From Spirulina sp. SIO3F2 (GTDB taxonomy: Bacteria; Cyanobacteriota; Cyanobacteriia; Cyanobacteriales; Spirulinaceae): a DNA stretch of 64,000 nucleotides. The stretch spans positions 62,001 to 126,000 of the forward strand of contig JAAHHN010000004.1 in NCBI GenBank assembly GCA_010672165.1, in the 5' to 3' direction. The notes below the pieces were generated by a model. That model did no database searches. It was given only the letters and a program-made list of their open reading frames with translations, and had not been told where the DNA came from. Below are positions 4,041 to 32,306 of the stretch, one piece after another (position 1 is the first letter of the stretch; the number at the start of each line of letters is the position of its first letter). The position numbers and the translations under genes are program-made.

Positions 4041-4982
4041 GTGAAACAGCACAGCGTTAGATTAATTTTGCTTGAGAAGTCAAGCGTTATCTTGAAAAGG
4101 AAAAATAATGAATTGAGTTGGTCTTTTCCGAGTAAACTCATTGAGGCATCAGATAGTAGTCAACAAACAATCCAGAAAATTGTAATTGAACTGTTCGGGT
4201 CTGTTTCCTGTTTTCCAAGCGAGAATCTTCATGAAGAATGTTTTTCCCTGCAATCAGGGGATTCCGTGGAACATTTTTTCTGCTTACCTTGTATCGAGCG
4301 CTATGATCTGACAAGAGTTATTCAGAAAGAATTTATTTTAAAATGGTTTGAAATTGAAGAGATTCTAGATATCGATTTGTCATCTACTGTGTATAGGAAC
4401 TTTTCCGCATTGGTAAGATTAGTATGGAATGGAACAGCAAATGACTTCCACATGTTAGACCAAATTGAAAGTCGTTTGCTGGATATTAATCGGCTTTCAA
4501 AAAAGAACGAGAGAGTTTTCTATACCACAGACAAGTTCATAGGAATATCCAATCAACAAATCTTTCTCATGAAGGAATTTGTGAGATTACGAGACCTCCC
4601 TGTGTTTCGAATATGTTTTCATACCAGTGACAAAGCTTGTATCCAAGAAATGTTGATCATTCATACGAGACCTACTGTGATCAAACCTCACAAGCAGGAG
4701 AAAGAGTCTGTATCTTACCATGTTGTCGAAGGTCATATCTCAGTCGAGATACATGATGATCAAGGAAACGTTTTTGAAAAATATGAAATTTGCAACCACC
4801 TTTCAAGTCTAGCAATTTCAGCGAATAATAAACAAATCTTTTTGAGAATTCCAGCCAATCAATTTCGAACTCTTCAAAGTCTCTCTTCATTTGCTATTTT
4901 CTTTGAGATTTCTATTGGTCCATTCCAAGATAGTGATACAGTATGGATGAAAGATTTAAGTCAAGGTATTGCTTTGGCATGA
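4041..4982 (+). CDS. Nudix-like domain fused to a WbuC-type cupin
   Basis: The 313-residue product has two parts. Residues about 5-130 look like a Nudix fold (VRLILLEKSSVILKRK at the start, then SWSFPSKLIE where the Nudix box should begin), but the expected RE...EE catalytic glutamates are not present, so it is probably a degenerate or non-catalytic Nudix domain. Residues about 150-305 match the WbuC cupin family seen in O-antigen loci: the CFHTSDKACIQEMLI stretch, then ESVSYHVVEGHISVEIHDD. WbuC function is not firmly known; a metal-dependent sugar modification is usually assumed. Start is GTG at 4041. The next gene follows 38 bases downstream. The cupin assignment is fairly sure; the Nudix assignment is weaker. 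Confidence 0.7.
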   Translation: MKQHSVRLILLEKSSVILKRKNNELSWSFPSKLIEASDSSQQTIQKIVIELFGSVSCFPSENLHEECFSLQSGDSVEHFFCLPCIERYDLTRVIQKEFILKWFEIEEILDIDLSSTVYRNFSALVRLVWNGTANDFHMLDQIESRLLDINRLSKKNERVFYTTDKFIGISNQQIFLMKEFVRLRDLPVFRICFHTSDKACIQEMLIIHTRPTVIKPHKQEKESVSYHVVEGHISVEIHDDQGNVFEKYEICNHLSSLAISANNKQIFLRIPANQFRTLQSLSSFAIFFEISIGPFQDSDTVWMKDLSQGIALA

Positions 4983-5020
4983 AGAATATACAGAATCCAA
5001 ACCTTTAACATCTTTAGCGT

Positions 5021-6292: not shown

Positions 6293-7023
6293 TGTCAGTA
6301 AGTTTGGTTATTGGGGGCACTCGAGGAATTGGGAAAACGATTGTTCAGCAACTTAGGCAAAGGGGTGATCAAGTTTACACAGCTTCAAGACGGCAGCTTA
6401 AGGATGAAGATCATATACAGTTTGACATTGCATCAGATGCTTTACAGACTCTAATTAGTAAGATTGATCATTCTTTAAATTACTTAGTTTTTACACAGCG
6501 ATATCGAGGTGAAAGTTGGGATAAAGAATTTCATATCTCCCTTAAGGGAGTCGATCGTTTAGTAAATGCTCTTAAAACGCACTTTGCACAAGAAGCTTCA
6601 GTTGTTATTCTTGGCTCTAATGCCAGTCAGTTTATTGTTCGGGAACAGACTGCTGCTTATCATGCTTCCAGAGCTGCCTTAGAAAGCTTGACGAAATATT
6701 ATGCTGTTCTTTGTGGTAGAGATAAAGTCCGTTTTAATTGTGTCCTCCCTTGCACACTTATTAAGCCTGAAAACGTGAATTTCTTTACAGAAGATAATAA
6801 AGCTCGGAATATGATTGAAGAGATTACACCACTAGGAAGAATGGGAACGTCTCAAGATGTTGCTAATTTGGTTTGCTTCCTTTGTAGTGAAAAGTCTTCG
6901 TTTATCACTGGACAATCTCTTATGCTCGATGGAGGTCTTTCCTTACGAAGTCAGGAAAGCATTGCTAGAGAGCTTCTAAATTTGCATTCATCCACATGTG
7001 AGGTGAAACCTAATGGAACGTAA
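6292..7023 (+). CDS. Short-chain dehydrogenase/reductase with YxxxR instead of YxxxK
   Basis: This is a 243-residue Rossmann-fold SDR. The nucleotide motif GGTRGIG is at residues 8-14, and the C-terminal pattern around residue 210 (ITGQSLMLDGG) is classical. The catalytic Tyr123 is followed four residues later by Arg127 (YHASR) rather than the usual Lys, which may lower or alter activity. It is translationally coupled to the methyltransferase upstream (TAATG) and overlaps the gene downstream by 11 bases. A role as a keto-sugar reductase acting after C-methylation is plausible but inferred. Confidence 0.8.
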   Translation: MSVSLVIGGTRGIGKTIVQQLRQRGDQVYTASRRQLKDEDHIQFDIASDALQTLISKIDHSLNYLVFTQRYRGESWDKEFHISLKGVDRLVNALKTHFAQEASVVILGSNASQFIVREQTAAYHASRAALESLTKYYAVLCGRDKVRFNCVLPCTLIKPENVNFFTEDNKARNMIEEITPLGRMGTSQDVANLVCFLCSEKSSFITGQSLMLDGGLSLRSQESIARELLNLHSSTCEVKPNGT

Positions 7024-8152
7024 GAGCCACGCTTTTGTGACTTTTTACTCAGATAATAATGTCTCTCCTGTATCGCAGGACATTACTGATTTATCACAGC
7101 ATTTCCAAAGAAGGGAATCATTATTTAGAAGCTTAGGTATTCTACCTATTTCTGTTCATAATGCTAGTGTTCTTGAGTTTGGTCCTGGCTCCGGTCATAA
7201 TGCTGTTTATACTGCTTCTCTGGAGCCCTCCAGATACAGCCTGGTAGATGGAAACCCGTTAGGTCTTGAGCGAACTCAGAGGATTCTTGAAAATTTCAAA
7301 TACAAGAATTTTCGAGTTATAGATTCTTTATTTGAAGATTATGTTTCGTCAGATAAGTTTGATATCGTTTGGGCTGAAGCCTGTATTCCTCAACAATCAA
7401 ATCCGATTTTAGTGCTTAAACACTTGTCAAAATTCACAAGGTTATCTGGCATATTTGTTTGTACCGCAATCAATTCAATATCTTACCTATCTGAAACTAT
7501 AAGGCGATTGATATTTAGCATATTGCTACCTGATGGCTCTGATTCTATACATTACACATTAGATCTACTCCGACCACGTCTTTCTCCTCATTTACTCAAT
7601 TTAAAGGGGATGAGTCGTCCTATAGATGATTGGATAATAGATAATATTATCCAGCCTTTGCAAGATAGACAGCTACTTAGCTTTCCAGAAATAATCGAGG
7701 CTCTATCAGACAGTTTTGACTTCTACTCATCATCTCCTAAGTTTATTACTGACTGGCGATGGTATAAAGAAATCTTAGGTCAAGATAGAGGATTTAATGA
7801 TAATGCTCTTGCTTGCTACTACAGGAATAATCTTAATCTGATTGACTATCGTTATGTTTTTGATGCTCATTCCACAGCTTTTGGCAAAGATCTGGAAGCT
7901 ATCTGCTCTGATAGTTGGGAGTTAATGACTCAAATTCAGCAGGGGAATAGTAGCAAATGGCAGGCTATATTTGATCTTCTTGCAGAAATTGCTTCAGTAG
8001 TTGAGCCAGTTACTCCAAACACTGCTTTAGCAATTCGTGAAGCTTCTGAATGGCTCCAGGATGGTGTTTCTGTAGAACGAGAGCTACAATATTTTCCTAG
8101 GTGGTGGGGACGTGGACAACAGTATGTTAGCCTGATTTGTAAATCTGCGTGA
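7013..8152 (+). CDS. Class I methyltransferase-like protein
   Basis: The 379-residue protein carries a SAM-binding motif (VLEFGPGSGHN near residues 50-60) and an acidic residue after the second strand (YSLVDGNP), followed by FDIVWAEACIP. The long C-terminal half has no motif I recognise. It is probably a sugar or glycan methyltransferase with an extra acceptor domain. It overlaps the SDR gene by 11 bases and ends the second operon; 169 bases of A+T-rich sequence follow with no clear terminator. Confidence 0.65.
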   Translation: MERKSHAFVTFYSDNNVSPVSQDITDLSQHFQRRESLFRSLGILPISVHNASVLEFGPGSGHNAVYTASLEPSRYSLVDGNPLGLERTQRILENFKYKNFRVIDSLFEDYVSSDKFDIVWAEACIPQQSNPILVLKHLSKFTRLSGIFVCTAINSISYLSETIRRLIFSILLPDGSDSIHYTLDLLRPRLSPHLLNLKGMSRPIDDWIIDNIIQPLQDRQLLSFPEIIEALSDSFDFYSSSPKFITDWRWYKEILGQDRGFNDNALACYYRNNLNLIDYRYVFDAHSTAFGKDLEAICSDSWELMTQIQQGNSSKWQAIFDLLAEIASVVEPVTPNTALAIREASEWLQDGVSVERELQYFPRWWGRGQQYVSLICKSA

Positions 8153-8324
8153 ATAACTCAACACTCCGAACAGTTTGTAATACTCAGCTCAGATTACAAT
8201 TGTGATAATCATTTGATGTTACATTGCTTTATTGGGAATTATCTCAATTATTAATTCAATGTTTTCTATTTGTTTGGCGAAAACAAAAATCATAGTTTTC
8301 CTAGATGTAAATTAGTGGTTATTG

Positions 8325-9779
8325 ATGCCTCAAAAGCCTAAACTTCCATCACATACTGTTTTTGTGTCAGGAAGTTTTAATATACTTCATCCTGGTCATT
8401 TGAGACTATTTCGCTTTGCCAAAGAGTGTGGAGATTGGCTTATTGTTGGCGTTTACTCTGATCGAATTGCTGCTAACGCAGCTCATATACCTGAACACTT
8501 GAGATTGGAAGGAGTCAGAAGCAATAGCTGGGTAGATGAAGCATTCCTGTTAGATGAACCTATAACTGACGTTGTTTCCAGACTGAAGCCTGATGTAGTT
8601 GTCAAGGGTAAAGAACACGAAGTGCTTTCAAATCCGGAGCAAACAGTTTTGGCAGAATATGGTGGAAAATTGTTGTTTAGCTCGGGTGAAGCTACGTTCT
8701 CATCTCTAGATCTACTTAAGAAAGAATTTTACGAATCAAGATTAAGCTCAATATCCTTACCTTATGAATATTTAGAGAGGCATAGAATTCGAATACAAGA
8801 TCTTAAAACTACACTACAGAGCTTTAGTAATTTAAGAGTTTGTGTTCTCGGTGATCTAATTATTGACGAATATATTACCTGTGATCCCTTGGGCTTATCT
8901 CGTGAAGATCCCACAGTTGTTGTAACACCCATTGACTCAACTCAATTTGTTGGCGGAGCTGGTATTGTTGCAGCTCATGCATCAGGATTAGGCGCTACAG
9001 TTAAGTTTTGCTCTGTTGCAGGCCAAGACTCAACAAGAGATTTCGCTGAGAAGCAATTAGTGGGTTATGGTGTTCAGTCCGTTATTCTAACGGATCAAAG
9101 TCGCCCTACCACGCTCAAACAACGTTTTCGTTGCAAGGGAAAGACTCTACTGAGAGTTAGCCATTTACATCAAGATGGGATCGACGTTAAACTTCAAGAC
9201 CAATTGTTTTGTGAGATTAATCAAATCATCCAAAATATAGATTTGTTAATATTTTCTGATTTTAATTATGGATGTTTACCACAAAAAATGATTGAGCGAA
9301 TCATCTCTACTGCTAAAAAGCAAGGCATTATGATAGTCGCTGACAGCCAATCCTCTTCACAAATCGGTAATATAAGCCGCTTCAAAGGTATGCATCTATT
9401 AACTCCAACTGAACACGAAGCTCGGCTTGCAACAGTAGATACTTCATCTGGATTAGTTGTTTTAGCAGAGCAGCTCAGACAACAATCCAAGGCTCGCAAT
9501 ATTTTGCTGAAATTGGGAGAAGAAGGTTTACTGGTTCATGCAGAAACCGAGAGTAAAAATGATTGGTTGACTGATCGGATTAGCGCCCTGAACTCTTCAC
9601 CAAAAGATGTTGCAGGTGCAGGTGATTCCCTACTTATCGCTAGCTCACTAACCCTCGCCAGTGGTGGGAGAATTTGGGAGGCTGCTTGCATGGGATCATT
9701 GGCAGCTGCCATTCAAGTTAGCCGTTTGGGGAATGTACCTATACAAGCAGAAGAAGTTTTTCAGGAGTTAGCTCATTAG
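8325..9779 (+). CDS. Bifunctional sugar nucleotidyltransferase/PfkB kinase, HldE-like with reversed domain order
   Basis: Residues 10-140 form a cytidylyltransferase-fold domain with the motif SGSFNILHPGH (HxGH), followed by VVKGKEHE as in HldE domain II. Residues about 165-484 form a ribokinase/PfkB domain that closely resembles HldE domain I: GDLIIDEYI, then FVGGAGIVAAHASGLGA, and the catalytic GAGD near 431-434. In Escherichia coli HldE the kinase comes first and the nucleotidyltransferase second; here the order is inverted. The expected chemistry is phosphorylation of a sugar phosphate at C1 followed by nucleotide transfer. Start ATG 8325 is preferred over TTG 8322. Whether the substrate is a heptose is not shown by sequence alone. 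Confidence 0.8.
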   Translation: MPQKPKLPSHTVFVSGSFNILHPGHLRLFRFAKECGDWLIVGVYSDRIAANAAHIPEHLRLEGVRSNSWVDEAFLLDEPITDVVSRLKPDVVVKGKEHEVLSNPEQTVLAEYGGKLLFSSGEATFSSLDLLKKEFYESRLSSISLPYEYLERHRIRIQDLKTTLQSFSNLRVCVLGDLIIDEYITCDPLGLSREDPTVVVTPIDSTQFVGGAGIVAAHASGLGATVKFCSVAGQDSTRDFAEKQLVGYGVQSVILTDQSRPTTLKQRFRCKGKTLLRVSHLHQDGIDVKLQDQLFCEINQIIQNIDLLIFSDFNYGCLPQKMIERIISTAKKQGIMIVADSQSSSQIGNISRFKGMHLLTPTEHEARLATVDTSSGLVVLAEQLRQQSKARNILLKLGEEGLLVHAETESKNDWLTDRISALNSSPKDVAGAGDSLLIASSLTLASGGRIWEAACMGSLAAAIQVSRLGNVPIQAEEVFQELAH

Positions 9780-13525: not shown

Positions 13526-13629
13526 TGGCTTTTACCTGCCTGTTGCCTATCCACCACACTCAAAATCTGCAATATTGTGTCTTGTTATGTAGATTGAATT
13601 AATACCTTTGGACGCTTACGTTTAACTTG

Positions 13630-14649
13630 ATGCAATTAGAAAAAAGTTCAAGAGTATTACTGACTGGCGGTACAGGTTCCTTTGGAAAAGAGTTTGTTCG
13701 CAATCTTCTAAGTCGCCATCCTGACATCAGTCGTCTTGTTATCTTTAGCCGAGATGAGCTAAAGCAATTTGAGATGGCTCAGGAGTTTTCCACCCAAGAT
13801 TATCCTGGGTTGCGTTATTTTATTGGTGATATCCGCGATCGCGATCGCCTTCGCCGTGCCTTAAGTCAAATTGATGTGGTAATTCATGCTGCCGCCCTCA
13901 AGCAAGTCCCCGCAGCCGAATATAATCCCATTGAATTTATCCGCACTAATGTCCTCGGTGCTGAGAATCTGATTCAGGCCTGTTTAGATACCCAAGTCAA
14001 GCAAGTTGTTGCGCTCTCAACCGATAAAGCGGCTGCCCCTGTAAACCTTTATGGTGCAACCAAATTATGTAGCGACAAACTTTTTATTGCCGCCAACAAC
14101 ATTGCAGGACGAGACTTAACTTTTAGTGTTGTTCGCTATGGCAATGTGATGGGCTCACGCGGCTCGGTGATTCCGTTCTTTCTCAAAAAACGGCATGAAG
14201 GTGTGCTCCCAATTACTGAACCCCATATGACTCGCTTCAATATCACCCTCCAAGAAGGAGTTGAAATGGTACTTTGGGCACTTAAAAATAGCCTAGGTGG
14301 TGAGATTTTCGTGCCGCATATTCCATCCTATCGGATTACAGATGTCGCTCAGGCCATTGGCCCCGACTGTCAACATCCAATTGTGGGAATTCGGCCGGGA
14401 GAGAAAATTCATGAGGAAATGATCACAGAGTCTGATTCTTACACAACTGTTGATCTTGGCCAATACTTTGCGATTCTACCCACTCAGGGGCGTTACACCA
14501 TTGAGAGCTATTGTGAACAAACGGGGGCTAAGCTTGTACGCCCAGGGTTTAGCTACAACTCAGGTACAAACCCCACGTTTCTCTCCGTGTCAGAGTTGAG
14601 AACGCTGATTCATGAACATGTCGATTCTGATTTTGCAATCAGCTCCTAG
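13630..14649 (+). CDS. pseB: UDP-N-acetylglucosamine 4,6-dehydratase (inverting), PseB
   Basis: This is the first enzyme of CMP-pseudaminic acid synthesis; it converts UDP-GlcNAc to UDP-2-acetamido-2,6-dideoxy-beta-L-arabino-hex-4-ulose. The Rossmann motif TGGTGSFG is near residues 12-19, the catalytic region includes ALSTDKAAAPVNLYGATK (Lys in TDK in place of Tyr, plus YxxxK), and FSRDELKQFEM is characteristic of PseB/FlaA1. The length of 339 is normal. ATG 13630 is preferred over TTG 13627. It opens the compact pse operon; pseC follows after 6 bases. Base composition is clearly richer in G+C than the genes just upstream, with two overlapping HIP1 sites near 13,840. Confidence 0.95.
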   Translation: MQLEKSSRVLLTGGTGSFGKEFVRNLLSRHPDISRLVIFSRDELKQFEMAQEFSTQDYPGLRYFIGDIRDRDRLRRALSQIDVVIHAAALKQVPAAEYNPIEFIRTNVLGAENLIQACLDTQVKQVVALSTDKAAAPVNLYGATKLCSDKLFIAANNIAGRDLTFSVVRYGNVMGSRGSVIPFFLKKRHEGVLPITEPHMTRFNITLQEGVEMVLWALKNSLGGEIFVPHIPSYRITDVAQAIGPDCQHPIVGIRPGEKIHEEMITESDSYTTVDLGQYFAILPTQGRYTIESYCEQTGAKLVRPGFSYNSGTNPTFLSVSELRTLIHEHVDSDFAISS

Positions 14650-14655
14650 AAGCTT

Positions 14656-15822
14656 ATGTCTTTTATTCCCTACGGTCGGCAACAGATTAGCCAAACGGAT
14701 ATTGATGCGGTTGTAGAGATTCTCAAATCAGATTGGCTAACTCAAGGGCCAACGATTAGTCGCTTTGAGCAAGCGATCGCTAACTATTGTGGTGCGCACT
14801 ATGCTGTGGCGGTGAGCAGTGCAACGGCTGCATTGCATATCGCCTGCCTGGCAGCGGGTTTGGGCTCGGGAGATTGGCTGTGGACATCACCCATTACTTT
14901 TGTGGCATCCGCGAACTGTGGCCGCTATTGTGATGCCCAGGTGAATTTTGTGGATATTGACCCACATACCTATAATCTGAGCATCACTGAGCTAGAACAG
15001 CGCCTTAAAACTGCAAAGAATCAGGGCAGTTCACCGAAAATCGTTATTCCAGTTCATTTGGCTGGCCAGTCTTGTGAAATGAAGCGTCTCGCCAGTCTGG
15101 CTGAACAATATGGCTTTACTCTTATTGAAGATGCCTCCCATGCCATTGGTGCCCAGTATCAGGGGCATCCTGTGGGGGGATGTCAGTTTTCAGATATGAC
15201 GGTGTTTAGTTTTCATCCCGTCAAAATTATCACAACGGGCGAGGGGGGGGTTATTACGACGAATAGCCAGGCACTCTATGAAAAGCTAATCCGTTTGCGA
15301 ACTCATGGCATCACACGTAATCCTGACCTGATGCAAGGTGAGTCCCATGGTTCTTGGTATTATCAGCAGTTGGAGTTGGGATTTAATTATCGCATGACAG
15401 ACATTCAAGCTGCTTTGGGCTTGAGTCAACTAACTCGCTTAGATACTTTTGTCCAGAAGCGTCGGCAACTAGCAAATCGATATGATGAGCTTTTAGCCGA
15501 TTTCCCCGTCCTATTACCCTGGCAACATCCAGACACCAACTCAAGTTGGCATCTCTACATCATTCGCCTGCAATTAGACTCGATTTCTCGAACCCATCGC
15601 CAAGTTTTTGAAGCCCTACGCGCATCTGGTATCGGTGTGAATTTACACTATATTCCTGTGTATCGCCAACCCTATTATCAGCGTCAATCTTCTGATGGGG
15701 CCGAGTTTCCAGAAGCTGAGCAGTACTATCAAGAAGCCATCAGTATCCCGTTGCATGCTGGCTTGACAGATGAGGAGCAAATTCGTGTGGTTCAAGCATT
15801 GCAGAATGCCCTTCATCTTTAG
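14656..15822 (+). CDS. pseC: UDP-4-amino-4,6-dideoxy-N-acetyl-beta-L-altrosamine transaminase, PseC
   Basis: This is a PLP-dependent DegT/DnrJ/EryC1-family aminotransferase that transfers an amino group to C4 of the PseB product. The Schiff-base lysine is Lys190 in FSFHPVKIITTGEGG; Asp159 (IEDASHAIGA) should contact the PLP ring nitrogen. The N-terminal FIPYGRQQISQTDI pattern is typical of PseC. It is full length at 388 residues. It lies 6 bases after pseB and 41 bases before pseF. Confidence 0.95.
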   Translation: MSFIPYGRQQISQTDIDAVVEILKSDWLTQGPTISRFEQAIANYCGAHYAVAVSSATAALHIACLAAGLGSGDWLWTSPITFVASANCGRYCDAQVNFVDIDPHTYNLSITELEQRLKTAKNQGSSPKIVIPVHLAGQSCEMKRLASLAEQYGFTLIEDASHAIGAQYQGHPVGGCQFSDMTVFSFHPVKIITTGEGGVITTNSQALYEKLIRLRTHGITRNPDLMQGESHGSWYYQQLELGFNYRMTDIQAALGLSQLTRLDTFVQKRRQLANRYDELLADFPVLLPWQHPDTNSSWHLYIIRLQLDSISRTHRQVFEALRASGIGVNLHYIPVYRQPYYQRQSSDGAEFPEAEQYYQEAISIPLHAGLTDEEQIRVVQALQNALHL

Positions 15823-15863
15823 CTTCGCAAGAGAGTATCAAGACGATTGAGTCCATCAATGGG

Positions 15864-16556
15864 ATGAAAATTGCTGTGATTCCCGCCCGGGGGGGCAGTA
15901 AACGTATCCCTCGCAAAAATATCCGCTCCTTTGCTGGTAAGCCCGCGATCGCCCATGTGATTCAAGTGGCTCTGGATTCTGGGTTATTTGATAACGTTTG
16001 GGTCTCAACCGATGATCTAGAAATTGCCGAAGTAGCCCAGCAATGGGGGGCGACCATTCCCTTTCTGCGCCCTCCAGAACTCGCCGATGATTTCGTGGGA
16101 ATCACGCCCGTCATCGCCCATGCCACTAACTGGGCCAGATCTCAAAATCTCGCCTTAGATGCGGTTTGTTGTATTTATGCAACTGCCATGTTGTGCCAAT
16201 CCCAAGATCTGGTGAAGGGTTGGCAAACTTTAAACACCGGAGATTGGCTTTATTCTTTTTCCGCAACTGAGTTCGCTGCTCCCATTTTCCGCGCATTTCA
16301 GCAGACCGAATCAGGTGGCGTCGAGATGTTTTTCCCTGAGCATTTCACGACTCGTTCTCAAGACCTTCCCATGGCCTTACATGATGCTGGCCAATTCTGT
16401 TGGGGGCGTCCCCATGCTTGGCAAGCCCAAAAACAAATCTTTGCTCCTTGGTCGATTCCGACGCTTATCCCCCGTTGGCGTGTTCAGGATATTGATACGG
16501 AAATAGATTGGCAGCAAGCCGAAAAAATTTGGCGACTCCTTCAGACCCAGTCATGA
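15864..16556 (+). CDS. pseF: Pseudaminic acid cytidylyltransferase, PseF
   Basis: This 230-residue enzyme activates pseudaminic acid with CTP to give CMP-Pse. The N-terminal motif IPARGGSKRIPRKNI (residues 6-20) is the CMP-sialate synthetase signature, and SATEFAAPIFRA together with FCWGRPHAW is PseF-like rather than NeuA-like. Its stop codon overlaps the pseG start (ATGA), so the two are translationally coupled. Confidence 0.93.
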   Translation: MKIAVIPARGGSKRIPRKNIRSFAGKPAIAHVIQVALDSGLFDNVWVSTDDLEIAEVAQQWGATIPFLRPPELADDFVGITPVIAHATNWARSQNLALDAVCCIYATAMLCQSQDLVKGWQTLNTGDWLYSFSATEFAAPIFRAFQQTESGGVEMFFPEHFTTRSQDLPMALHDAGQFCWGRPHAWQAQKQIFAPWSIPTLIPRWRVQDIDTEIDWQQAEKIWRLLQTQS

Positions 16557-17632
16557 AACTGCTGATTCGGGTTGATGGCTCCATAAAAATTGGTTCTGGC
16601 CATGTGATGCGCTGTTTAGCCATAGCTCAAGCGTGGCAAGATAGTCAGGGCAAGCCCATGTTTGTGATGGCACATCCGGCCTCTCCTCTAGAGGAACGTC
16701 TCAAGTTAGAAGACATGGCGGTTATCCACTTAGCCGCAGAGCCAGGAAGCTTAGCAGATGCTCAAGAAACGGCAGCACTCGCGGCTCAATATGAGGCGAG
16801 TTGGGTTGTGGTGGACGGCTATCAGTTTGGGAGCGACTATCAAAAAGCTATCAAGGCGTTTGGTTTACGTCTACTCTTTATAGATGACTACGGGCATGCA
16901 GACCATTATTATGCTGACATTGTCCTCAATCAAAATATTTCTGCTGATGAGCAATGGTATCAACATCGTGAAGCGAATACCCAGCTACTCCTCGGTGCTC
17001 GTTATGCCCTGTTACGGCGAGAATTTTGGCAATGGCGGGATTGGCAACGAACCGTGTCACCCATTGCGAAAAAGGTTTTAGTGACCTTAGGCGGGTCTGA
17101 CCCAGATAATGTGACGCTAAAAGTGATTCAGGCTTTGCAGCTTGTGGAGCAGGAAGAGCTAGAGATAGTCGTTGTTGTGGGAGGAAGTAACCCACATTAT
17201 GCATCTCTCGACATTGCTGCACAGGATTCTCGGTTTCCCATTTGCTTAGAACGGAATGTCACCAATATGCCAGAGTTAATGGTTTGGGCAGATGTGGCAA
17301 TTTCTGCGGGCGGCAGTACCTGCTGGGAACTTGCCTTTATGGGCCTACCCAGCCTACTCATCATCATTGCAGAGAATCAACGGACAATCGTAGAGCAATT
17401 AGCTGCACTAAAATGTGCAATGAATTTAGGCTGGCATGACCTTCTTAACGTGGATAGTTTAACAAGTTCGGTTCAATCTTTATCGCTCACACAATCAGCA
17501 CGATTTGCTATGAAAGCGCTTTTGCAGCAAGCCGTTGATGGCTTAGGGAGCGATCGAGTCGTGACTCATTTGCTAGAGTGCTCTTCGCCGTTAGCGGCTC
17601 AAACCAATCCGCCGCTCAAAGTGCAGCAATGA
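16553..17632 (+). CDS. pseG: UDP-2,4-diacetamido-2,4,6-trideoxy-altropyranose hydrolase, PseG
   Basis: This is a MurG-like GT-B-fold nucleotidase that removes UDP from the amidated 2,4,6-trideoxy-altrose intermediate. The start (KLLIRVDGSIKIGSGHVMRC) is diagnostic, with the catalytic-type His in GSGHVMRC; the C-terminal nucleotide-binding half includes GGSDPDN and SAGGSTCWELAFMG. ATG 16553 is chosen because it gives an ATGA overlap with pseF and the canonical N-terminus; a longer frame begins at 16508. It overlaps the next gene the same way. Length is 359 residues, as expected. Confidence 0.93.
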   Translation: MKLLIRVDGSIKIGSGHVMRCLAIAQAWQDSQGKPMFVMAHPASPLEERLKLEDMAVIHLAAEPGSLADAQETAALAAQYEASWVVVDGYQFGSDYQKAIKAFGLRLLFIDDYGHADHYYADIVLNQNISADEQWYQHREANTQLLLGARYALLRREFWQWRDWQRTVSPIAKKVLVTLGGSDPDNVTLKVIQALQLVEQEELEIVVVVGGSNPHYASLDIAAQDSRFPICLERNVTNMPELMVWADVAISAGGSTCWELAFMGLPSLLIIIAENQRTIVEQLAALKCAMNLGWHDLLNVDSLTSSVQSLSLTQSARFAMKALLQQAVDGLGSDRVVTHLLECSSPLAAQTNPPLKVQQ

Positions 17633-18210
17633 ATGTTCTTTTACTTGGCCCTGAGCGTCCTGAGCTGATGGTGTTCTTTAAAACCTGTGGAGACCACGTC
17701 ATCAGTACAGAGGATAAGCTGCACTCAACCAGCCCTCTCATTCAAGAGGTGGATTTTTTGGTGAGCTATGGCTATCGGCATATTCTAAAACCTGCCATCC
17801 TAGACCAGTTTCCCAAATATGCCATTAATCTTCATATATCCTTACTACCGTGGAATCGAGGTGCTGATCCCAATCTTTGGAGTTTTTTGGAGGATACCCC
17901 GAAAGGCGTCACTATTCATACCTTAGATCGAGGCATCGACACTGGTGATATTTTGGTGCAACAAGAAGTGATGCTGTCCGCCAATGAAACCCTGAAGACA
18001 AGCTATGAAAAACTATCCCTTGCAGCGCAAGGCTTGCTTCAGCGGTCATGGCTAGATATTCGTGCTCATCAAATCCCGCCACAGCCCCAAGCAGCGGGTG
18101 GGTCTTACCATTGTTTGCGCGATCGCCAGCAATATGAGCATCTACTCACCCACGGCTGGGATACACCTGTGCATAATCTGATCGGTAAAGCCAAAAATCG
18201 GGAAAAATAG
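17629..18210 (+). CDS. Formyltransferase-family protein in the pse operon (possible PseH replacement)
   Basis: The 193-residue protein belongs to the N10-formyltetrahydrofolate-dependent formyltransferase fold. The catalytic triad is visible: Asn67 and His69 (INLHISLLPWNRG) and Asp104 (LDRGIDTGDIL), with the same order and near-identical spacing as in ArnA or methionyl-tRNA formyltransferase. In a standard pse operon this step is acetylation of the 4-amino group by the GNAT enzyme PseH, and no GNAT gene is seen in the window. I infer that the 4-amino group is formylated here, giving a 7-N-formyl pseudaminic acid, a form known from Pseudomonas aeruginosa O-antigens. Start ATG 17629 overlaps the pseG stop (ATGA). 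Confidence 0.82.
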   Translation: MNVLLLGPERPELMVFFKTCGDHVISTEDKLHSTSPLIQEVDFLVSYGYRHILKPAILDQFPKYAINLHISLLPWNRGADPNLWSFLEDTPKGVTIHTLDRGIDTGDILVQQEVMLSANETLKTSYEKLSLAAQGLLQRSWLDIRAHQIPPQPQAAGGSYHCLRDRQQYEHLLTHGWDTPVHNLIGKAKNREK

Positions 18211-18212
18211 TG

Positions 18213-19274
18213 ATGATAAATACGAGCTATATCACGATTGAAAATAAAAGTATTGGGCCAGATGCACCTCCCTTTATCATTGCCGAAATGTCTGGTAATC
18301 ATAATCAATCTCTGCAACGGGCGTTGGAAATTGTTGAAGCGGCTGCCCAAGCTGGAGCCCATGGTCTTAAGCTCCAGACTTACACCGCAGATACCATGAC
18401 CCTCGATCTTAAGGAAGGAGACTTCTTCATTGACAATCCTGAGAGTCTATGGAATGGACATTCCCTATATGAACTGTATCAGCAAGCCCATACCCCATGG
18501 GAATGGCATGAAACACTACTAAAGCGGTGTCGTGAACTCGGCATCATTGGCTTTAGCACTCCCTTTGATGCCACAGCCGTTGACTTTCTTGAATCATTGG
18601 ATGTGCCATGTTACAAAATCGCCTCCTTTGAAAATACGGATTTACCTTTGATTCGAAAGGTCGCCAGCACCGGTAAACCCATGATTATTTCAACGGGAAT
18701 GGCGACTATCGCTGAGCTGGACGAAACTGTTAGAACAGCAAGAGCTTCAGGCTGCCAAGATCTGGTACTACTCAAATGCACCAGTACCTATCCGGCCAGT
18801 CCAGAAAACAGCCACTTACAAACAATTCCCCATTTGCAAGCGCTGTTTAAAACGCAAGTTGGTCTCTCTGACCACACCTTAGGCGTTGGTGTAGCTGTTG
18901 CGAGTGTTGCCTTAGGCGCAACTGTCATTGAAAAGCACTTTACCCTATCTCGTGCCGAAGGTGGGGTTGATGCGGTCTTTTCCATGGAGCCAGAAGAAAT
19001 GTACCAGCTTGTTGTTGAATCTCAGCGAGCCTGGCAAGCGTTAGGGCAAATTCAATATGGCTCTGTTAAGGCTGAACAAGCATCCCGTAAATTCCGGCGC
19101 AGTTTGTATATCGCAGAAGATCTCAAAGCAGGCGATCGTCTTACGCCAAAAAATTTAAGAGCCATACGCCCTGGTTATGGTCTACCACCTAAATATATCG
19201 ATACTTTCTTAGGGAAACTGCTCACTAAGGATGTAAAAAAAGGAACTCCTTTAAGTTGGGATATATTCTCTTGA
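18213..19274 (+). CDS. pseI: Pseudaminic acid synthase, PseI
   Basis: This condenses the 2,4-diamido-trideoxy-altrose with phosphoenolpyruvate to give pseudaminic acid. The NeuB-type TIM barrel (IIAEMSGNHNQSLQRALEI at residues 19-37; VGLSDHT; IEKHFTLSR) is followed by a C-terminal SAF/antifreeze-like domain from about residue 290 (RRSLYIAEDLKAGDRLT). The MSGNHN sequence separates PseI from NeuB, which has IGxNHN. GTG 18210 is an alternative start, overlapping the formyltransferase stop. It ends the pse operon. Confidence 0.94.
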   Translation: MINTSYITIENKSIGPDAPPFIIAEMSGNHNQSLQRALEIVEAAAQAGAHGLKLQTYTADTMTLDLKEGDFFIDNPESLWNGHSLYELYQQAHTPWEWHETLLKRCRELGIIGFSTPFDATAVDFLESLDVPCYKIASFENTDLPLIRKVASTGKPMIISTGMATIAELDETVRTARASGCQDLVLLKCTSTYPASPENSHLQTIPHLQALFKTQVGLSDHTLGVGVAVASVALGATVIEKHFTLSRAEGGVDAVFSMEPEEMYQLVVESQRAWQALGQIQYGSVKAEQASRKFRRSLYIAEDLKAGDRLTPKNLRAIRPGYGLPPKYIDTFLGKLLTKDVKKGTPLSWDIFS

Positions 19275-25167: not shown

Positions 25168-26289
25168 ATGCCTAAAAGTTGTTTTGTGAACTTGATAATC
25201 CCAGTTTCGAAAGTTGATCTGGTGGTTTATGACTTTGATGGTGTCATGACCAATAATTTAGTTGCTATTGCTCAAAACAATGTTGAGTCTGTTCAGTGCA
25301 ATCGTGGTGATGGCTTAGGGATCAGAATGGTCAAGGGATTTGATATCCCTCAACTCATTCTTAGCACAGAAACGAATCCAGTAGTTACAGCACGTGCGAA
25401 CAAACTTAAGTTGCCAGTCATTCAAGGTGCGGAAAATAAGCTAAGGTCTTTAACAGAATATTGTCAAGCAAATCATTACAATCTTTCCAAAACAGTTTAC
25501 ATTGGTAATGATCTCAATGACTTAGAAGTGATGCAGGCAGTCGGTTGGCCGATTTGCCCAGCAGATGCCCATCCGAAGATTCGCCAGCTATCTTGCATAA
25601 TTACACAGGCTAGAGGTGGAGAAGGCGTCGTAAGAGAGTTTGGTGAGAAGCTACTCGTTGATGATGTAGTTGAGACCAAACATATTGTTAATTCCCACTC
25701 TAAACCAAGTGTACTGACCGAAGTCAAAGCGCAACTTCAAGATTCAATTGATTTACGAGTATCGTTATTAGGGAGTCCAAACTTACTGAGCAAAATCATT
25801 GAACTGAGCGACTTGCTTATTACCTGTATTCAAGCTGGTGGCTGTATTTTTTGGGCAGGAAATGGTGGTAGCTTTGCTGATGCTCAGCATTTAGCTGCTG
25901 AACTTGTCGGCCGGTTTATGCGTGAGCGAGAACCTTGGGCATCCATATGTTTGGGAACCAACAGTTCGACCTTTAGTTCGATTAGTAATGATTATGATTT
26001 TTCTCAAGTTTTTTCCCGAGAGTTACAAGCACTGTGCAAACCAAACGATGCTCTGATACTCTTGTCAACGAGTGGAAATTCGCGTAATTTACTCAATGTT
26101 GCAAAAGTGGCTCTGGAAAATGACTTGAAGATTTTTGCCCTTTTAGGGAAGTCCGGAGGACAGCTAGCTTATTATGTCCCTAGTCAGAGCATTGTGGTTC
26201 CCTCTTACCACACTGCTCGCATTCAGGAGATACACATTATGCTGGGACACATTGTCTGCGATTTAGTTGAACAGTCTTTAGCTCGATAG
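25168..26289 (+). CDS. Fusion of KdsC-type HAD phosphatase and GmhA-type sugar isomerase
   Basis: Residues about 15-165 form a KdsC/NeuAc-9-phosphatase-like HAD domain: motif I YDFDGVMTNN (Asp22, Asp24), a conserved Lys in QGAENKL and motif IV GNDLNDLEVM. Residues about 185-373 form a SIS domain close to GmhA, sedoheptulose-7-phosphate isomerase: WAGNGGSFADAQHLAAELVG, LLSTSGNSRNL and the terminal RIQEIHIMLGHIVCDLVE, which contains the GmhA-type Gln, Glu and His residues. The two activities are normally separate genes. The NeuB-like synthase gene follows after 68 bases, which suggests the isomerase makes the aldose acceptor and the phosphatase removes phosphate from it or from the keto-acid product. 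The fusion is clear; the substrates are inferred. Confidence 0.85.
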   Translation: MPKSCFVNLIIPVSKVDLVVYDFDGVMTNNLVAIAQNNVESVQCNRGDGLGIRMVKGFDIPQLILSTETNPVVTARANKLKLPVIQGAENKLRSLTEYCQANHYNLSKTVYIGNDLNDLEVMQAVGWPICPADAHPKIRQLSCIITQARGGEGVVREFGEKLLVDDVVETKHIVNSHSKPSVLTEVKAQLQDSIDLRVSLLGSPNLLSKIIELSDLLITCIQAGGCIFWAGNGGSFADAQHLAAELVGRFMREREPWASICLGTNSSTFSSISNDYDFSQVFSRELQALCKPNDALILLSTSGNSRNLLNVAKVALENDLKIFALLGKSGGQLAYYVPSQSIVVPSYHTARIQEIHIMLGHIVCDLVEQSLAR

Positions 26290-26357: not shown

Positions 26358-27203
26358 ATGTTTATCATTGCTGAAATTGGTATTAATCATAATGGAGATA
26401 TCTCAATTGCAAAGGAGTTGATCAAGGTTGCGAGTCAAGCAGGGGCAAATGCGGTTAAATTTCAAAAGCGAACATTGGATGCTGTCTACACCCAGAACTA
26501 TTTAGATTCAGCTCGTGAGAGTCCCTGGGGAAAAACGCAGCGTGAGCAGAAGGAAGGGCTAGAATTCTCTAAGGTAGATTATGAGCAAATTGATATATTT
26601 TGTCGTGAATTAGGAATTGATTGGTTTGCTTCAGCATGGGATATTGACAGCCAAAAGTTTATGCGTCAATTTGACCTGAAGTATAATAAAGTTGCTTCAG
26701 CAATGATTGTTTATCACGATTTATTGAGGGAGATTGCCTCTGAAGGGCGTCATACGTTTATTTCTACGGGGATGAGTGGCGAGGATGAAATTGATCAGGC
26801 CGTTACAATTTTTCGGGAAGCGCATTGTCCGTTTGAGTTGATGCATTGTGTTTCGACCTATCCGATGACTGATGAAGATGCGAATCTCCGGCGAATCCAA
26901 ACGCTCCGCGATCGCTATCAGTGTGATGTTGGCTATAGTGGCCATGAGGTAGGCTTGACAATTTCATTTGCCGCAGCAGCTTTAGGGATTTCATCGCTTG
27001 AGCGTCATATCACCTTGGATCGGGCCATGTATGGCTCAGATCAAGCTGCCTCAATCGAGCCAGATGGTTTCCGAAAATTAGTTCGGGGTGTCAGAACAAT
27101 TATTAATGCAATGGGAGATGGTCAAGTCCGCATTCTAGAGCAAGAAATTCCGATTGCTCAGAAACTCCGTAGCCATATCCCCTGGCAAGCCAGCCAACGC
27201 TAA
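26358..27203 (+). CDS. NeuB-family keto-acid synthase lacking the SAF domain
   Basis: This is a 281-residue TIM-barrel synthase of the NeuB/SpsE family that condenses an aldose or aldose phosphate with phosphoenolpyruvate. IIAEIGINHNGDISIAKELI at the N-terminus, AVKFQKR, VGYSGHEVG and the metal-binding His in LERHITLDRA are present. Unlike PseI at 18,213 it ends right after the barrel and has no C-terminal SAF domain. The pathway product is therefore probably not standard pseudaminic acid. The neighbouring KdsC-type phosphatase points to a phosphorylated acceptor, as in the NeuAc-9-P or Kdo-8-P routes. Confidence 0.85.
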   Translation: MFIIAEIGINHNGDISIAKELIKVASQAGANAVKFQKRTLDAVYTQNYLDSARESPWGKTQREQKEGLEFSKVDYEQIDIFCRELGIDWFASAWDIDSQKFMRQFDLKYNKVASAMIVYHDLLREIASEGRHTFISTGMSGEDEIDQAVTIFREAHCPFELMHCVSTYPMTDEDANLRRIQTLRDRYQCDVGYSGHEVGLTISFAAAALGISSLERHITLDRAMYGSDQAASIEPDGFRKLVRGVRTIINAMGDGQVRILEQEIPIAQKLRSHIPWQASQR

Positions 27204-27236: not shown

Positions 27237-27926
27237 ATGGGAAACGTTGTAGCCATTATTCCTGCACGTGCAGGCTCTAAAGGAATTCCTGGTAAAAATT
27301 TAATGCCCTTCTGCGGTCATCCCTTATTAACCTGGTCAATTGTTCAGTCTCAAAAAGCGAATTGTATAGACTCAGTATGGGTCAGCTCAGATGGAGATGA
27401 TATTTTAAAGATATCTCATGATTATGGTGCTTATGTGATTGAGCGTCCTATGCAGTTATCTGGAGATCGCGCTTCTTCAGAGTCTGCTTGGCTCCATGCA
27501 ATTGAATCCATTGAAGCTCAAGGTATAGCAATCGATTGGGTCATTGGGATGCAAGCAACTTCTCCCTTAAGAGAAGCAAAAGATTTAGAGCTAGCTCTAC
27601 AGCAAGTCATTTCCGAGCAATTAGATTCTCTACTGAGCGTCGTGGAAGTTGAGGATTTTTTCATATGGCGCAATCATGCGGGGAAACCTGAATCAATCAA
27701 CTATGATTTTCATAATCGTAAACCACGTCAAGCGATCGAGAAAAAGTATTTAGAAAATGGTTCATTCTATATTTTTAGCCCTGATTTATTGAGAAATACA
27801 GGGAATCGTTTAGGTGGCAAAGTTGGTATGTATATTATGGAGCGCCATAAAATGTTCCAAATTGATAATCCCACAGATGCCCGATTATGCGAAGTTGTGA
27901 TGAAAGGCTATCAGCTTGATCGATGA
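27237..27926 (+). CDS. CMP-keto-acid synthetase (NeuA-like cytidylyltransferase)
   Basis: This 229-residue cytidylyltransferase has the N-terminal signature IPARAGSKGIPGKNL (residues 8-22), and GMQATSPLREAKDLE is typical of NeuA-type enzymes. The C-terminal IDNPTDARLCEVVM carries the metal-binding Asp. It should activate the product of the upstream synthase as the CMP derivative. It is distinct from PseF at 15,864, which supports two separate CMP-nonulosonate-type pathways. Its stop overlaps the next start (ATGA). Confidence 0.88.
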   Translation: MGNVVAIIPARAGSKGIPGKNLMPFCGHPLLTWSIVQSQKANCIDSVWVSSDGDDILKISHDYGAYVIERPMQLSGDRASSESAWLHAIESIEAQGIAIDWVIGMQATSPLREAKDLELALQQVISEQLDSLLSVVEVEDFFIWRNHAGKPESINYDFHNRKPRQAIEKKYLENGSFYIFSPDLLRNTGNRLGGKVGMYIMERHKMFQIDNPTDARLCEVVMKGYQLDR

Positions 27927-28669
27927 CCGCAACATTCTTAGAGCAGTTATTTGGCTTGTCGGGGCGAGTGGCTCTAGTTACAGGAGCATCACGTGGTATT
28001 GGCCGAGCGATCGCGGAAGGCTTTGTAAACTCTGGTGCTACTGTTTTTGGCATTGGCCGTAGCCCACAGCCGTCTGCTATCAGTTTTGCTTACAACTCAG
28101 CAGACATTTGCGATCGAGAATCGATTAAACAGATTTGCAACAATATTGTCCATCAATACAAGCAGATTGATATTCTCGTTCAAGCAGCTGGAATAACTTT
28201 GCCTAGCTTGGGAAAATCTCAGTCATCGCAGATATTTCATCAAACATTAGCAGTGAATCTAGAGGCAGCTTACAATGTCGCTGATATCGTAAGTCGCAAT
28301 ATGAAAAGAGGCGGGACAATTATTTTTGTAACTAGTATTGCTGCCCATATAGGTTTCCCTAATAATCCTGGCTATGTTGCTTCCAAAGGTGGGCTGAGAA
28401 CTTTAGTTCGTGCTTTAGCCATTGACTTAGCACCTCATGGGATACGGGTTAATGCTTTAGCACCAGGATATATCCATACCGCAATGACAGATGCCAGTTA
28501 TGCAAATCCAGTTCAATACCAAGCACGCTTGAATCAAACTTTACTAAAGCGTTGGGGAGAACCAGAAGATTTAGTGGGAGCCGCTATTTTTTTGGCATCT
28601 TCCGCTTCTAACTATGTCACAGGGAGTGATATGTTAATAGACGGTGGGTGGACAGCAAAAGGACTTTAA
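27923..28669 (+). CDS. Short-chain dehydrogenase/reductase
   Basis: This is a 248-residue classical SDR: TGASRGIG near residues 18-25, catalytic Ser in FVTSIAAH and YVASK as the Tyr-Lys pair, ending in the usual YVTGSDMLIDGGW. It is coupled to the cytidylyltransferase by an ATGA overlap. It may oxidise or reduce a hydroxyl of the keto acid or of its CMP form. The substrate cannot be read from the sequence. Confidence 0.85.
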   Translation: MTATFLEQLFGLSGRVALVTGASRGIGRAIAEGFVNSGATVFGIGRSPQPSAISFAYNSADICDRESIKQICNNIVHQYKQIDILVQAAGITLPSLGKSQSSQIFHQTLAVNLEAAYNVADIVSRNMKRGGTIIFVTSIAAHIGFPNNPGYVASKGGLRTLVRALAIDLAPHGIRVNALAPGYIHTAMTDASYANPVQYQARLNQTLLKRWGEPEDLVGAAIFLASSASNYVTGSDMLIDGGWTAKGL

Positions 28670-28673
28670 ACCT

Positions 28674-29501
28674 ATGGCGATTGGATTTATGCAGGGAAGG
28701 CTGTCTCCCTTGATTGATGGCAAAATTCAATGTTTTCCTTGGCCCTATTGGCAGCAAGAGTTTTCGATTGCCCAAGAGATTGGGTTTTCGTTGATGGAAT
28801 GGACGTTAGATCAAGAGAGATGGGAAGAAAATCCCTTGTTAACTGTGTCAGGCCAAGCTGAAATCAAAGCTCTAAGCGTTTCTCATAATGTCCAAGTTGG
28901 CTCTCTTACGGGTGATTGCTTTATGCAAGTACCGTTTTATAAAACCCAAGGAATTCAACAGCAAGCTTTACTCGATCAAATCCATACTATCCTTGATGCT
29001 TGTGCTCAGCTTAGTATCAACTTTATTGTGCTCCCTCTAGTTGATAATGGCAGTCTCACCTCGGCTAAAGAGCAAGAGACACTAATTGAACATTTATTGC
29101 CATTTTCCTCCCGCTTGGTTGATGCCAATCAAAAAATAATCTTTGAATCTGACTTTTCCCCAGAGCGATTACTCCAGTTAATTCAGGAATTCCCACCCGA
29201 AAGTTTTGGCATCAACTATGATGTAGGGAATAGTGCAGCGTTAGGGTTTAATGCTAACCATGAAATTTCGAGCTACGGACATCGCATTGATAATGTCCAT
29301 ATCAAAGATCGAGTCAAAGGAGGGGGCACAGTGCCCCTTGGTCAAGGAGATGCAGACTTTCTGCTTGTTTTTGACACCTTGAAAACTGTTGGTTATCAGG
29401 GTCATTATATTCTCCAAACAGCTCGGGCATCAGAAGGAGAGCATGAAAGTGTTCTGTGTCAATATCGAGATTTTGTAAAGCACTATTGTGCCACAACGTA
29501 G
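28674..29501 (+). CDS. TIM-barrel sugar isomerase/epimerase-like protein
   Basis: This 275-residue protein belongs to the xylose-isomerase-like TIM-barrel family (AP endonuclease 2 superfamily). Metal-ligand candidates are Glu in FSLMEWTLD, Glu in IIFESDFSP, Asp in INYDVGNSAALG and His/Asp in NVHIKDRVKGGG. Such enzymes isomerise or epimerise keto or aldo sugars. ATG 28674 is chosen over GTG 28644, which would overlap the SDR gene. It is placed between two SDR genes in the second keto-acid module, so epimerisation of a pathway intermediate is plausible. Confidence 0.8.
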   Translation: MAIGFMQGRLSPLIDGKIQCFPWPYWQQEFSIAQEIGFSLMEWTLDQERWEENPLLTVSGQAEIKALSVSHNVQVGSLTGDCFMQVPFYKTQGIQQQALLDQIHTILDACAQLSINFIVLPLVDNGSLTSAKEQETLIEHLLPFSSRLVDANQKIIFESDFSPERLLQLIQEFPPESFGINYDVGNSAALGFNANHEISSYGHRIDNVHIKDRVKGGGTVPLGQGDADFLLVFDTLKTVGYQGHYILQTARASEGEHESVLCQYRDFVKHYCATT

Positions 29502-29510
29502 TCTATAGCG

Positions 29511-30260
29511 ATGGATCTTGAGCTTCAAGACAAGGTTGCAGTTGTGACTGGTGCATCTCAAGGCTTGGGCTTGGCGATCGCCACTGTCCTCAAGCAGGAA
29601 GGCAGCCATGTTGTTTTAATTGCCCGTAACCAAGACAAACTGGAGCAAGCGGCTCACTCACTTGACAGTGATGCAATTGCTGGCGATGTAACACAGCCTG
29701 AGGCTTGTCAAGCAATAGTCACGAAAGTTCTAGCACAGTATGGCAAGCTTGATATCTTAGTTTGTAATGTTGGTAGTGGTCGCTCAGCTCCACCAGGCAC
29801 AGAAACTTTAGAGGATTGGCATGAGAGTCTAGAGATCAATCTTTTCTCGACAACTCGGATGGTAACTGCGGCTCGTGCAGCTTTTTCTCCACAAGGCGGT
29901 AGTATCATTTGTATTTCTTCAATTTGCGGCTCTGCGGCTTTGGGAGCACCTGCAACCTACTCTGCGGCTAAAGCAGCTTTAAATTCTTATGTACGCAGTC
30001 TTGCGAGACCCTTAGCAAACCAGAATATTCGGATCAATGCGATCGCACCTGGTAACCTATTATTCCCAGGTTCTGTCTGGGAGAAAAAGTTACACGAAGA
30101 TGAATCTTCTGTGATAAGTATGCTTGAACGAGAGGTTGCTCAACGTCGTTTGGGTAAACCAGAAGAAGTTGCAAGATTTGTGGCTTTTTTAGCATCTTCT
30201 GCTGCTTCTTTTGCGACAGGCTCGGTATTTGTGGTAGATGGTGGTCAGCTTAGAGCATAA
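29511..30260 (+). CDS. Short-chain dehydrogenase/reductase
   Basis: This is a 249-residue classical SDR with TGASQGLG near residues 14-21, Ser in CISSICGS, YSAAK as the catalytic pair and a C-terminal GSVFVVDGG. It starts 9 bases after the isomerase stop, so it is in the same operon. It contains a HIP1 site near 29,573 and another near 30,039. The substrate is unknown; together with the SDR at 27,923 it could perform an oxidation-reduction epimerisation. Confidence 0.85.
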   Translation: MDLELQDKVAVVTGASQGLGLAIATVLKQEGSHVVLIARNQDKLEQAAHSLDSDAIAGDVTQPEACQAIVTKVLAQYGKLDILVCNVGSGRSAPPGTETLEDWHESLEINLFSTTRMVTAARAAFSPQGGSIICISSICGSAALGAPATYSAAKAALNSYVRSLARPLANQNIRINAIAPGNLLFPGSVWEKKLHEDESSVISMLEREVAQRRLGKPEEVARFVAFLASSAASFATGSVFVVDGGQLRA

Positions 30261-31354: not shown

Positions 31355-31469
31355 TAAACCAGTGTTTATTTAAAAACTCAGATAATCACTTGATTGACCC
31401 TTGACATTGCAAAGTAATGCTAAACTATTCAAAGTTCACAGATAAAGTGCCTTGATGAGAGGGCGAATA

Positions 31470-32306
31470 ATGCTCAACAATCTATCACAATCTTTCAATT
31501 TAGAAAATCGCAATGCGATTGTCACAGGTGGAGGAGGATTATTGGGGATCAAGCATTGTCTTGCCCTAGCTGAGTTGGGCGCAACTGTTATTATTGCTGA
31601 TATTGATACCAAGGCTGCCTCAGATGCAGCTCAAAGAGTCAATAATATATCTCAGCAAATCTGTGCATATTCGCTGAGTTTAGACGTTACTGACTCTTCA
31701 AGTGTTGAAGCTGCTCTAGAAAAAATTCTATTAGAACATGGTGGTCTCCACATTTTGGTTAATAATGCTGCAATTAACCCTAAAGTGAGTAGTGATGGAG
31801 TTACCGAAACATCTCGTTTTGAAAACTTTTCTCTTGAACAGTGGAATCAACAAATCAATGTTGGACTAACAGGAGCTTTTTTATGTAGTAAGATATTTGG
31901 AACTTGGATGTCGGAAAATGGAGGAGGGATAATTCTCAATATTGCTTCAGATTTATCTGTACTTGCACCCGATCAACGACTTTATCGCCAGCCAGGCTTA
32001 CCTCCAGAATTACAGCCTGTTAAGCCTGTAGCCTACTCTGTAGTAAAAACTGCACTCATTGGTTTAACACGATATTTGGCAACATATTGGGCAGATAAGG
32101 AAATTCGTGTTAATGCGCTTTCACCTGGAGGAGTTTATAACAACCAACCTCAAGATTTTGTAGAGCGTTTGTCTACACTTATTCCAATGGGTAGGATGGC
32201 AAAAGAAGATGAATACAGAAGTGCAGTTCAGTTTCTTTGCTCAGATGCGTCAAGTTATATGACAGGGCAGAATATTGTTATGGATGGTGGCCGTAGTGTT
32301 TGGTGA
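31470..32306 (+). CDS. PtmA-like short-chain dehydrogenase
   Basis: This SDR resembles PtmA of flagellin glycosylation loci: the nucleotide motif is TGGGGLLG rather than TGxxxGIG, the catalytic region has a long insert before YSVVKTALIGLTRYLATYW, and the end is MTGQNIVMDGGRSVW. PtmA proteins accompany legionaminic or related nonulosonate synthesis in Campylobacter, although their exact reaction is uncertain. The presence here supports a nonulosonate role for the nearby NeuB/NeuA pair. Candidate starts are TTG 31452, ATG 31455 and ATG 31470; the last is preferred because GAGAGG lies at good spacing before it. Confidence 0.82.
   Translation: MLNNLSQSFNLENRNAIVTGGGGLLGIKHCLALAELGATVIIADIDTKAASDAAQRVNNISQQICAYSLSLDVTDSSSVEAALEKILLEHGGLHILVNNAAINPKVSSDGVTETSRFENFSLEQWNQQINVGLTGAFLCSKIFGTWMSENGGGIILNIASDLSVLAPDQRLYRQPGLPPELQPVKPVAYSVVKTALIGLTRYLATYWADKEIRVNALSPGGVYNNQPQDFVERLSTLIPMGRMAKEDEYRSAVQFLCSDASSYMTGQNIVMDGGRSVW

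Follow-up and report, generated by a model that had tools for sequence, protein, structure and literature searches.

A fused HAD phosphatase and SIS isomerase encoded beside a NeuB-type synthase in Spirulina sp. SIO3F2

Phosphatase fusions are already known in NeuB-type pathways. In Leptospira, a fusion of NeuB with a phosphatase has been described (PMC3438082), in which the phosphatase is joined into a NeuB-type pathway and the phosphate is taken off after the synthase. HAD-type domains are also fused to CMP-transferases in three bacterial loci compared here (L034, L035 and L051), and one forms the C-terminal domain of the murine CMP-sialic acid synthetase (3ewi). Two further groups of described enzymes are relevant, i.e., the KDN-9-phosphate (KDN-9-P) phosphatase of Bacteroides thetaiotaomicron (3e81) with KdsC/YrbI, all of which stand alone, and the GmhA sedoheptulose-7-phosphate isomerases (2x3y, 1x92 and 5i01). 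A Kdn route has also been described (PMC6200933). In the open-access literature we found no description of either an isomerase-phosphatase fusion in a NeuB cluster or deculosonic acids.

The window analyzed here is a stretch of 64,000 nucleotides from a cyanobacterial genome (7.3 Mb, 96.5% complete). It encodes a HAD phosphatase fused to an isomerase of the SIS type, directly upstream of genes for a NeuB-family synthase and a CMP-sugar transferase. The family of the HAD domain and the kind of pathway are shared with the CMP-transferase fusions and the murine enzyme, whereas the fusion partner is different; in Leptospira the partner is the synthase, whereas the window protein has an isomerase as partner, whose step is expected ahead of that of the synthase. 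The isomerase-phosphatase pair thus adds a further form to the fusions known from sialic-acid-type pathways. The features of the locus are as follows.

25168..26289, + strand: fused HAD phosphatase-SIS isomerase ORF, 373 aa (profile searches, PDB matches, predicted model and ORF reading)
25204..25662, + strand: HAD domain of the KdsC/KDN-9-P phosphatase type, residues 13-165, with D22, D24, K91, GNDLND 113-118, and E68 and K79
25663..25695, + strand: loose inter-domain linker, residues 166-176, pLDDT < 50, no in-frame start codon
25711..26286, + strand: SIS isomerase domain of the GmhA type, residues 182-373 (profile search, PDB matches and residue alignment)
26358..27203, + strand: short NeuB-family synthase without a SAF domain, sharing 54-72% identity with relatives from clusters of this kind
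27237..27926, + strand: CMP-sugar cytidylyltransferase (CTP_transf_3), a homologue of the fusion partner of HAD in other bacteria
27923..28669, + strand: SDR oxidoreductase a of the conserved cluster
28644..29501, + strand: AP_endonuc_2/xylose-isomerase-like TIM barrel of the conserved cluster
29511..30260, + strand: SDR oxidoreductase b of the conserved cluster
31452..32306, + strand: SDR oxidoreductase c of the conserved cluster

The ORF starts at ATG and runs for 373 codons with no internal stop. Profile searches placed the HAD domain at the N terminus and the SIS domain at the C terminus, and the best PDB matches of the whole protein were phosphoheptose isomerases and the HAD hydrolase 3mmz. 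The AlphaFold2 monomer model bore out the two-domain chain proposed in the first-pass annotation, with two confident folds (mean pLDDT 89.3) joined by the short loose linker; the placement of the domains relative to each other is uncertain (pTM 0.58). The ORF frame holds no stop between 25560 and 25800, where the two remaining frames have 6 and 8. It also has no ATG, GTG or TTG there, so the SIS half has no start of its own near the junction.

The junction was also compared with six related clusters in which the two genes are separate. Their HAD stop and SIS start lie 2 to 17 bases apart and in different frames, so that the genes abut or overlap and a small change suffices for fusion; by the same token, a sequencing indel could in principle imitate one. 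The HAD-first form with this cluster was, in addition, seen in one genome only. We nevertheless consider it extremely unlikely that an assembly or sequencing artefact merged two overlapping genes, because the SIS half lacks a start codon (and the frame a stop) near the junction, a linker of about 17 residues separates the domains, and the HAD and SIS pair is fused, independently, in other genomes. We conclude that the 373-codon ORF and its fusion are real.

The catalytic motifs are retained in both halves, as the first-pass annotation had stated (DFDG at 22, GNDLND at 113, GNGGS at 231, DAQH at 238, STSGNS at 300, RIQE at 351 and MLGH at 358). The N-terminal half matched models of the KDN-9-P phosphatase/KdsC type (E 1e-24 to 1e-28) and has the full catalytic set of this family (C0 HAD), with DxD, Ser/Thr, Lys and GxDxxD, i.e., D22 and D24, S66 or T67, K91, and GNDLND 113-118. 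Its fold aligns with 3mmz (VIA-align Z 27.7), the KDN-9-P phosphatase 3e81 (Z 24.6) and E. coli YrbI (Z about 24). The best-scoring named model was that of KDN-9-P phosphatase (NF058599), at 99 to 102 bits against a curated cut-off of 180, and the KdsC subfamily TIGR01670 scored 85.5 to 88.3 bits against a cut-off of 106.95. The domain thus shares its fold, its catalytic motifs and the Glu/Lys columns with these stand-alone enzymes but is fused to an isomerase and falls below the curated cut-offs of their families. In these columns, E68 and K79 align with Glu56 and Lys67 of the Bacteroides KDN-9-P phosphatase, which are mutated in the PDB structures 4hgq and 4hgr. As general background, canonical Kdo-8-P phosphatases have a different residue at the Glu position. 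In the HAD tree and the comparison of loci, the nearest relatives of the domain are fused to a CMP-transferase or adjoin one.

The C-terminal half matched GmhA models (E 2e-47 to 4e-53) and has the GmhA fold (Z about 27; 2x3y, VIA-align Z 27.5). Every GmhA catalytic and zinc residue that we checked is kept: D238, H241, E245, Q353 and H361 correspond to D61, H64, E68, Q175 and H183 of the Burkholderia pseudomallei enzyme, and the last four also to the zinc ligands H61, E65, Q175 and H183 of gonococcal GmhA (PMC5387315). GmhA forms a homotetramer in which adjacent chains contribute to common zinc sites. Unlike GmhA, the domain is fused and associated with NeuB, carries GGSF in place of GGSA, and scores below the curated cut-off of the gmhA equivalog (TIGR00441; 161 against 209.45 bits). 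GGSF was rejected as a marker of NeuB function, as relatives next to GmhB and unlinked ones carry it too. In the SIS tree, in which many deep branches are weak, the domain falls in a clade of 20 sequences (support 97), 14 of them in NeuB clusters and two beside a GmhB-like gene. In other NeuB clusters (L006, L007, L169, L036, L039 and the reversed fusions described below), the SIS genes branch elsewhere in the tree. A second SIS paralogue of the window genome lies 6 kb upstream of the window (L002 1510-2109; G000:C334:55660-56199), and the usual RIQE pattern is gone from its C-terminal motif (MQIAEDIQLIVGH).

With NeuB and CMP-sugar transferase genes directly downstream of the fusion, the locus has the two genes expected of a NeuB-type ulosonic acid pathway, as do the clusters of relatives. 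The first-pass annotation had named Kdo and heptose synthesis as the standard pathways of the two enzymes. The pathway here is neither that of Kdo nor that of ADP-heptose: the constant partners are a NeuB-type synthase and a CMP-sugar transferase, and no canonical Kdo-8-P synthase KdsA was found above cut-off in the 96.5% complete genome (best match 124 bits, cut-off 314). The Kdo pathway was rejected on the basis of this KdsA result together with the KDN-type Glu/Lys pair of the HAD domain. Elsewhere in the window there is a pseudaminic-acid-type set (13627-19274), distinct from the NeuB module beside the fusion, with PseB-, PseC-, PseF- and PseG-like genes, a formyltransferase gene and PseI (497 bits, cut-off 340). 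A transketolase is encoded as two split genes within a surface-polysaccharide locus (166-1935) and could supply sedoheptulose-7-phosphate.

To compare this arrangement with other bacteria, we searched for the domain architecture and its neighbors. The KdsC-type and GmhA-type pairing that had been noted from the window alone was recovered widely, the two halves being neighbors or fused in many unrelated genomes. Genes for the short NeuB-type synthase and the CMP-sugar transferase are their constant partners, and those for SDRs and the TIM-barrel enzyme also lie alongside. In one genome (G639), the genes are separate and run SIS, HAD, NeuB (72%), CMP-transferase (60%), an unassigned ORF, SDRa, TIM, SDRb and SDRc. 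In Thiomargarita, Achromatium and one Actinomycetota genome, the CMP-transferase and HAD form a single chain followed by SIS and NeuB, and further loci outside the cyanobacteria have the same parts with TIM and SDRs. Plasmid and phage collections gave no full-length match. A 106-kb IMG/VR viral contig (L236, 811-6462) encodes an SDR, a cytidylyltransferase, a methyltransferase, NeuB (49%), a glyoxalase-like protein and a KdsC-type HAD (54%); ORFs that resemble phage coat genes follow within a few kb.

Of 386 genomes sampled without bias from the cyanobacterial phylum, five have a NeuB of at least 54% identity. All five have a GmhA-type SIS with a HAD domain alongside, fused in the window genome and in G169 and G310, and separate in G362 and G013. 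Among 398 Pseudomonadota genomes, 11 have such a NeuB, with SIS directly adjoining in two. SIS and NeuB are thus strongly linked in cyanobacteria, and less tightly in other bacteria. G310 and G362 have no GmhA homologue besides the cluster copy, and the three Firmicutes genomes have none besides the fused one. A strong GmhA homologue is missing from 7 of 27 genomes with NeuB-cluster loci (mostly draft assemblies), and a strict dependence of NeuB on GmhA is therefore unsupported.

Four groups of HAD/SIS fusions were distinguished. The first is that of the window, with the KdsC-type HAD first and SIS second. The second, turned up by an order-level genome search, has SIS followed by a KdsC-type HAD (393-399 aa) in four cyanobacteria of the same order (G1000, G953, G964 and G994); three of these have SDRa-TIM-SDRb-SDRc-NeuB downstream, and in G953 the contig ends past SDRa. 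The third group, in the picocyanobacteria G169 and G310, combines SIS with a different N-terminal HAD that is weakly EcbF/BcbF-like (E 4e-5 and 1e-4), directly after NeuB. The fourth has a KdsC-type HAD followed by SIS in gut Firmicutes (L036, L037 and L039), where the accompanying genes encode another NeuB, a DHDPS-family protein and an iron alcohol dehydrogenase. The L037 cluster (4589-9059) encodes all of these with the fusion, and no cytidylyltransferase like that of the window was detected in it. A different combination was seen in one Riflebacteria ORF of 391 aa (L152, 4198-5373), whose GmhA-type SIS is fused with a nucleotidyltransferase domain resembling that of HldE.

A single origin for all fusions is untenable, given that the Firmicutes HADs are far from the window HAD in the HAD tree (support 98), the picocyanobacterial HAD is of another type, and the reversed fusions (L237-L240) have the two domains the other way round. 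The SIS tree alone does not separate the window from the second group (AU p = 0.36), and the lineages of the window fusion and the reversed fusions may be related. There are at least three independent fusion origins, and probably four. Overlapping samples of 386 genomes from the phylum, 13 from the family and 391 from the order, together with 349 genomes of Pseudomonadota, yielded no second HAD-first fusion like that of the window, in searches that do not reliably report the reversed order.

The gene surroundings in these many bacteria point to a single sialic-acid-like surface-sugar pathway for the two halves, which may start from a seven-carbon sugar. With moderate confidence, we favor the view that the 373-aa protein carries two enzyme activities of a NeuB-type ulosonic acid pathway, with its HAD domain acting after NeuB. 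From these comparisons we infer the order of steps, the substrate, the product and the benefit of the fusion. The SIS domain, a predicted ketose/aldose isomerase and as such placed before NeuB, would turn a phosphorylated ketose into a phosphorylated aldose; a first guess from its family is sedoheptulose-7-phosphate to D-glycero-D-manno-heptose-7-phosphate. The short neighboring NeuB would condense the aldose phosphate with phosphoenolpyruvate to a 3-deoxy-ulosonate phosphate, from which the HAD domain would remove the phosphate, and the cytidylyltransferase would provide the CMP-activated sugar for a surface polysaccharide. The HAD domain is placed after NeuB because of its kinship to HADs fused to CMP-transferases and its KDN-type residues. 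The fusion would thus couple steps one and three, with co-assembly and a fixed ratio more probable than direct channelling. Against this view stand the missed NCBIfam equivalog cut-offs of both halves (161/209 bits for gmhA, 99/180 for KDN-9-P phosphatase), the few Pseudomonadota in which SIS lies directly beside NeuB (2 of the 11 with NeuB), and the genomes without a strong GmhA homologue (7/27, mostly drafts).

The first-pass annotation had read the fusion as a hint that one metabolite flows between the halves. A common pathway agrees with their being neighbors or fused in many unrelated genomes; a direct hand-off is unsupported, as the kin of the HAD are tied to CMP-transferase. Under such a hand-off, the SIS domain would make heptose-7-phosphate, the HAD domain would release free heptose, and NeuB would condense this with phosphoenolpyruvate. 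It would suit the presence of both predicted activities in one chain, in both orders, and the use of unphosphorylated sugars by many bacterial NeuB enzymes, which condense ManNAc in this form with phosphoenolpyruvate (PMC3438082, PMC6200933). However, the closest HAD kin, being fused to CMP-transferase, and the KDN-9-P phosphatase specificity pair both point to a step after NeuB. Action of the HAD domain on the isomerase product is possible but less likely, and we regard the direct route as a whole as quite unlikely.

A nucleotide-heptose pathway was also considered, in which the SIS domain is GmhA and the KdsC-type HAD replaces GmhB on heptose-1,7-bisphosphate, together with the HldE-like gene at 8322 and the nucleotidyltransferase gene at 11598. 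The HldE-like protein (8322-9779) has the nucleotidyltransferase first and the PfkB kinase second, the opposite of the domain order in canonical HldE. The presence of HldE-like and HddC-like genes in the window is in keeping with this pathway, as are the GmhB-like gene that adjoins relatives from the window's own SIS clade and the GmhA-GmhB fusions adjoining HldE in bacteria of the wider cyanobacterial phylum that have small genomes (L135 7925-8989; L136 5308-6369). The latter resemble the window protein in joining a GmhA domain to a HAD phosphatase, but their HAD is C-terminal, of the HAD-IIIA GmhB type, and belongs to the nucleotide-heptose pathway. KdsC-type and GmhB-type HADs are separate families, and the related clusters are tied to NeuB and CMP-transferase, usually without the kinase and heptosyl-nucleotide genes, which makes this pathway very unlikely here.

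Within the favored NeuB-type pathway, the choice of substrate was weighed separately. That several GmhA lineages were recruited with their catalytic residues kept suggests that the pathway calls for the ordinary GmhA reaction. Sedoheptulose-7-phosphate would then be isomerized to heptose-7-phosphate by the SIS domain, condensed with phosphoenolpyruvate by NeuB and dephosphorylated by the HAD domain, giving a ten-carbon 3-deoxy-dec-2-ulosonic acid. Heptose-7-phosphate has the same C2-C5 configuration as mannose-6-phosphate, the substrate of Kdn-9-P synthase, and a ten-carbon NeuB product is therefore chemically reasonable. To our knowledge, no such class of bacterial surface sugar has been described. 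The 7 of 27 NeuB-cluster genomes without a strong GmhA, though most are drafts, argue against this product, which we put forward tentatively, as possible rather than probable.

The conservative alternative to heptose-7-phosphate is mannose-6-phosphate. Here the SIS domain would have drifted to a fructose-6-phosphate/mannose-6-phosphate isomerase, and mannose-6-phosphate would lead by way of Kdn-9-P and Kdn to CMP-Kdn. The nearest named model to the HAD domain, KDN-9-P phosphatase, the NeuB without a SAF domain and the missing strong GmhA in some genomes with a close NeuB are consistent with this substrate. The tested GmhA active-site residues, however, are all retained, multiple GmhA lineages occur in these clusters, and a dedicated source of mannose-6-phosphate is not obviously needed; we consider Kdn an unlikely product.

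The repeated fusion, in both orders, of a GmhA-type isomerase and a phosphatase next to NeuB ties families usually assigned to Kdo and heptose synthesis to one sialic-acid-like pathway. Annotations such as 'phosphoheptose isomerase' and 'Kdo-8-P phosphatase' are probably misleading in NeuB clusters. If heptose-7-phosphate is the substrate, the clusters would predict a class of ten-carbon surface sugars, and the product would be a homologue of Kdn that is one carbon longer.
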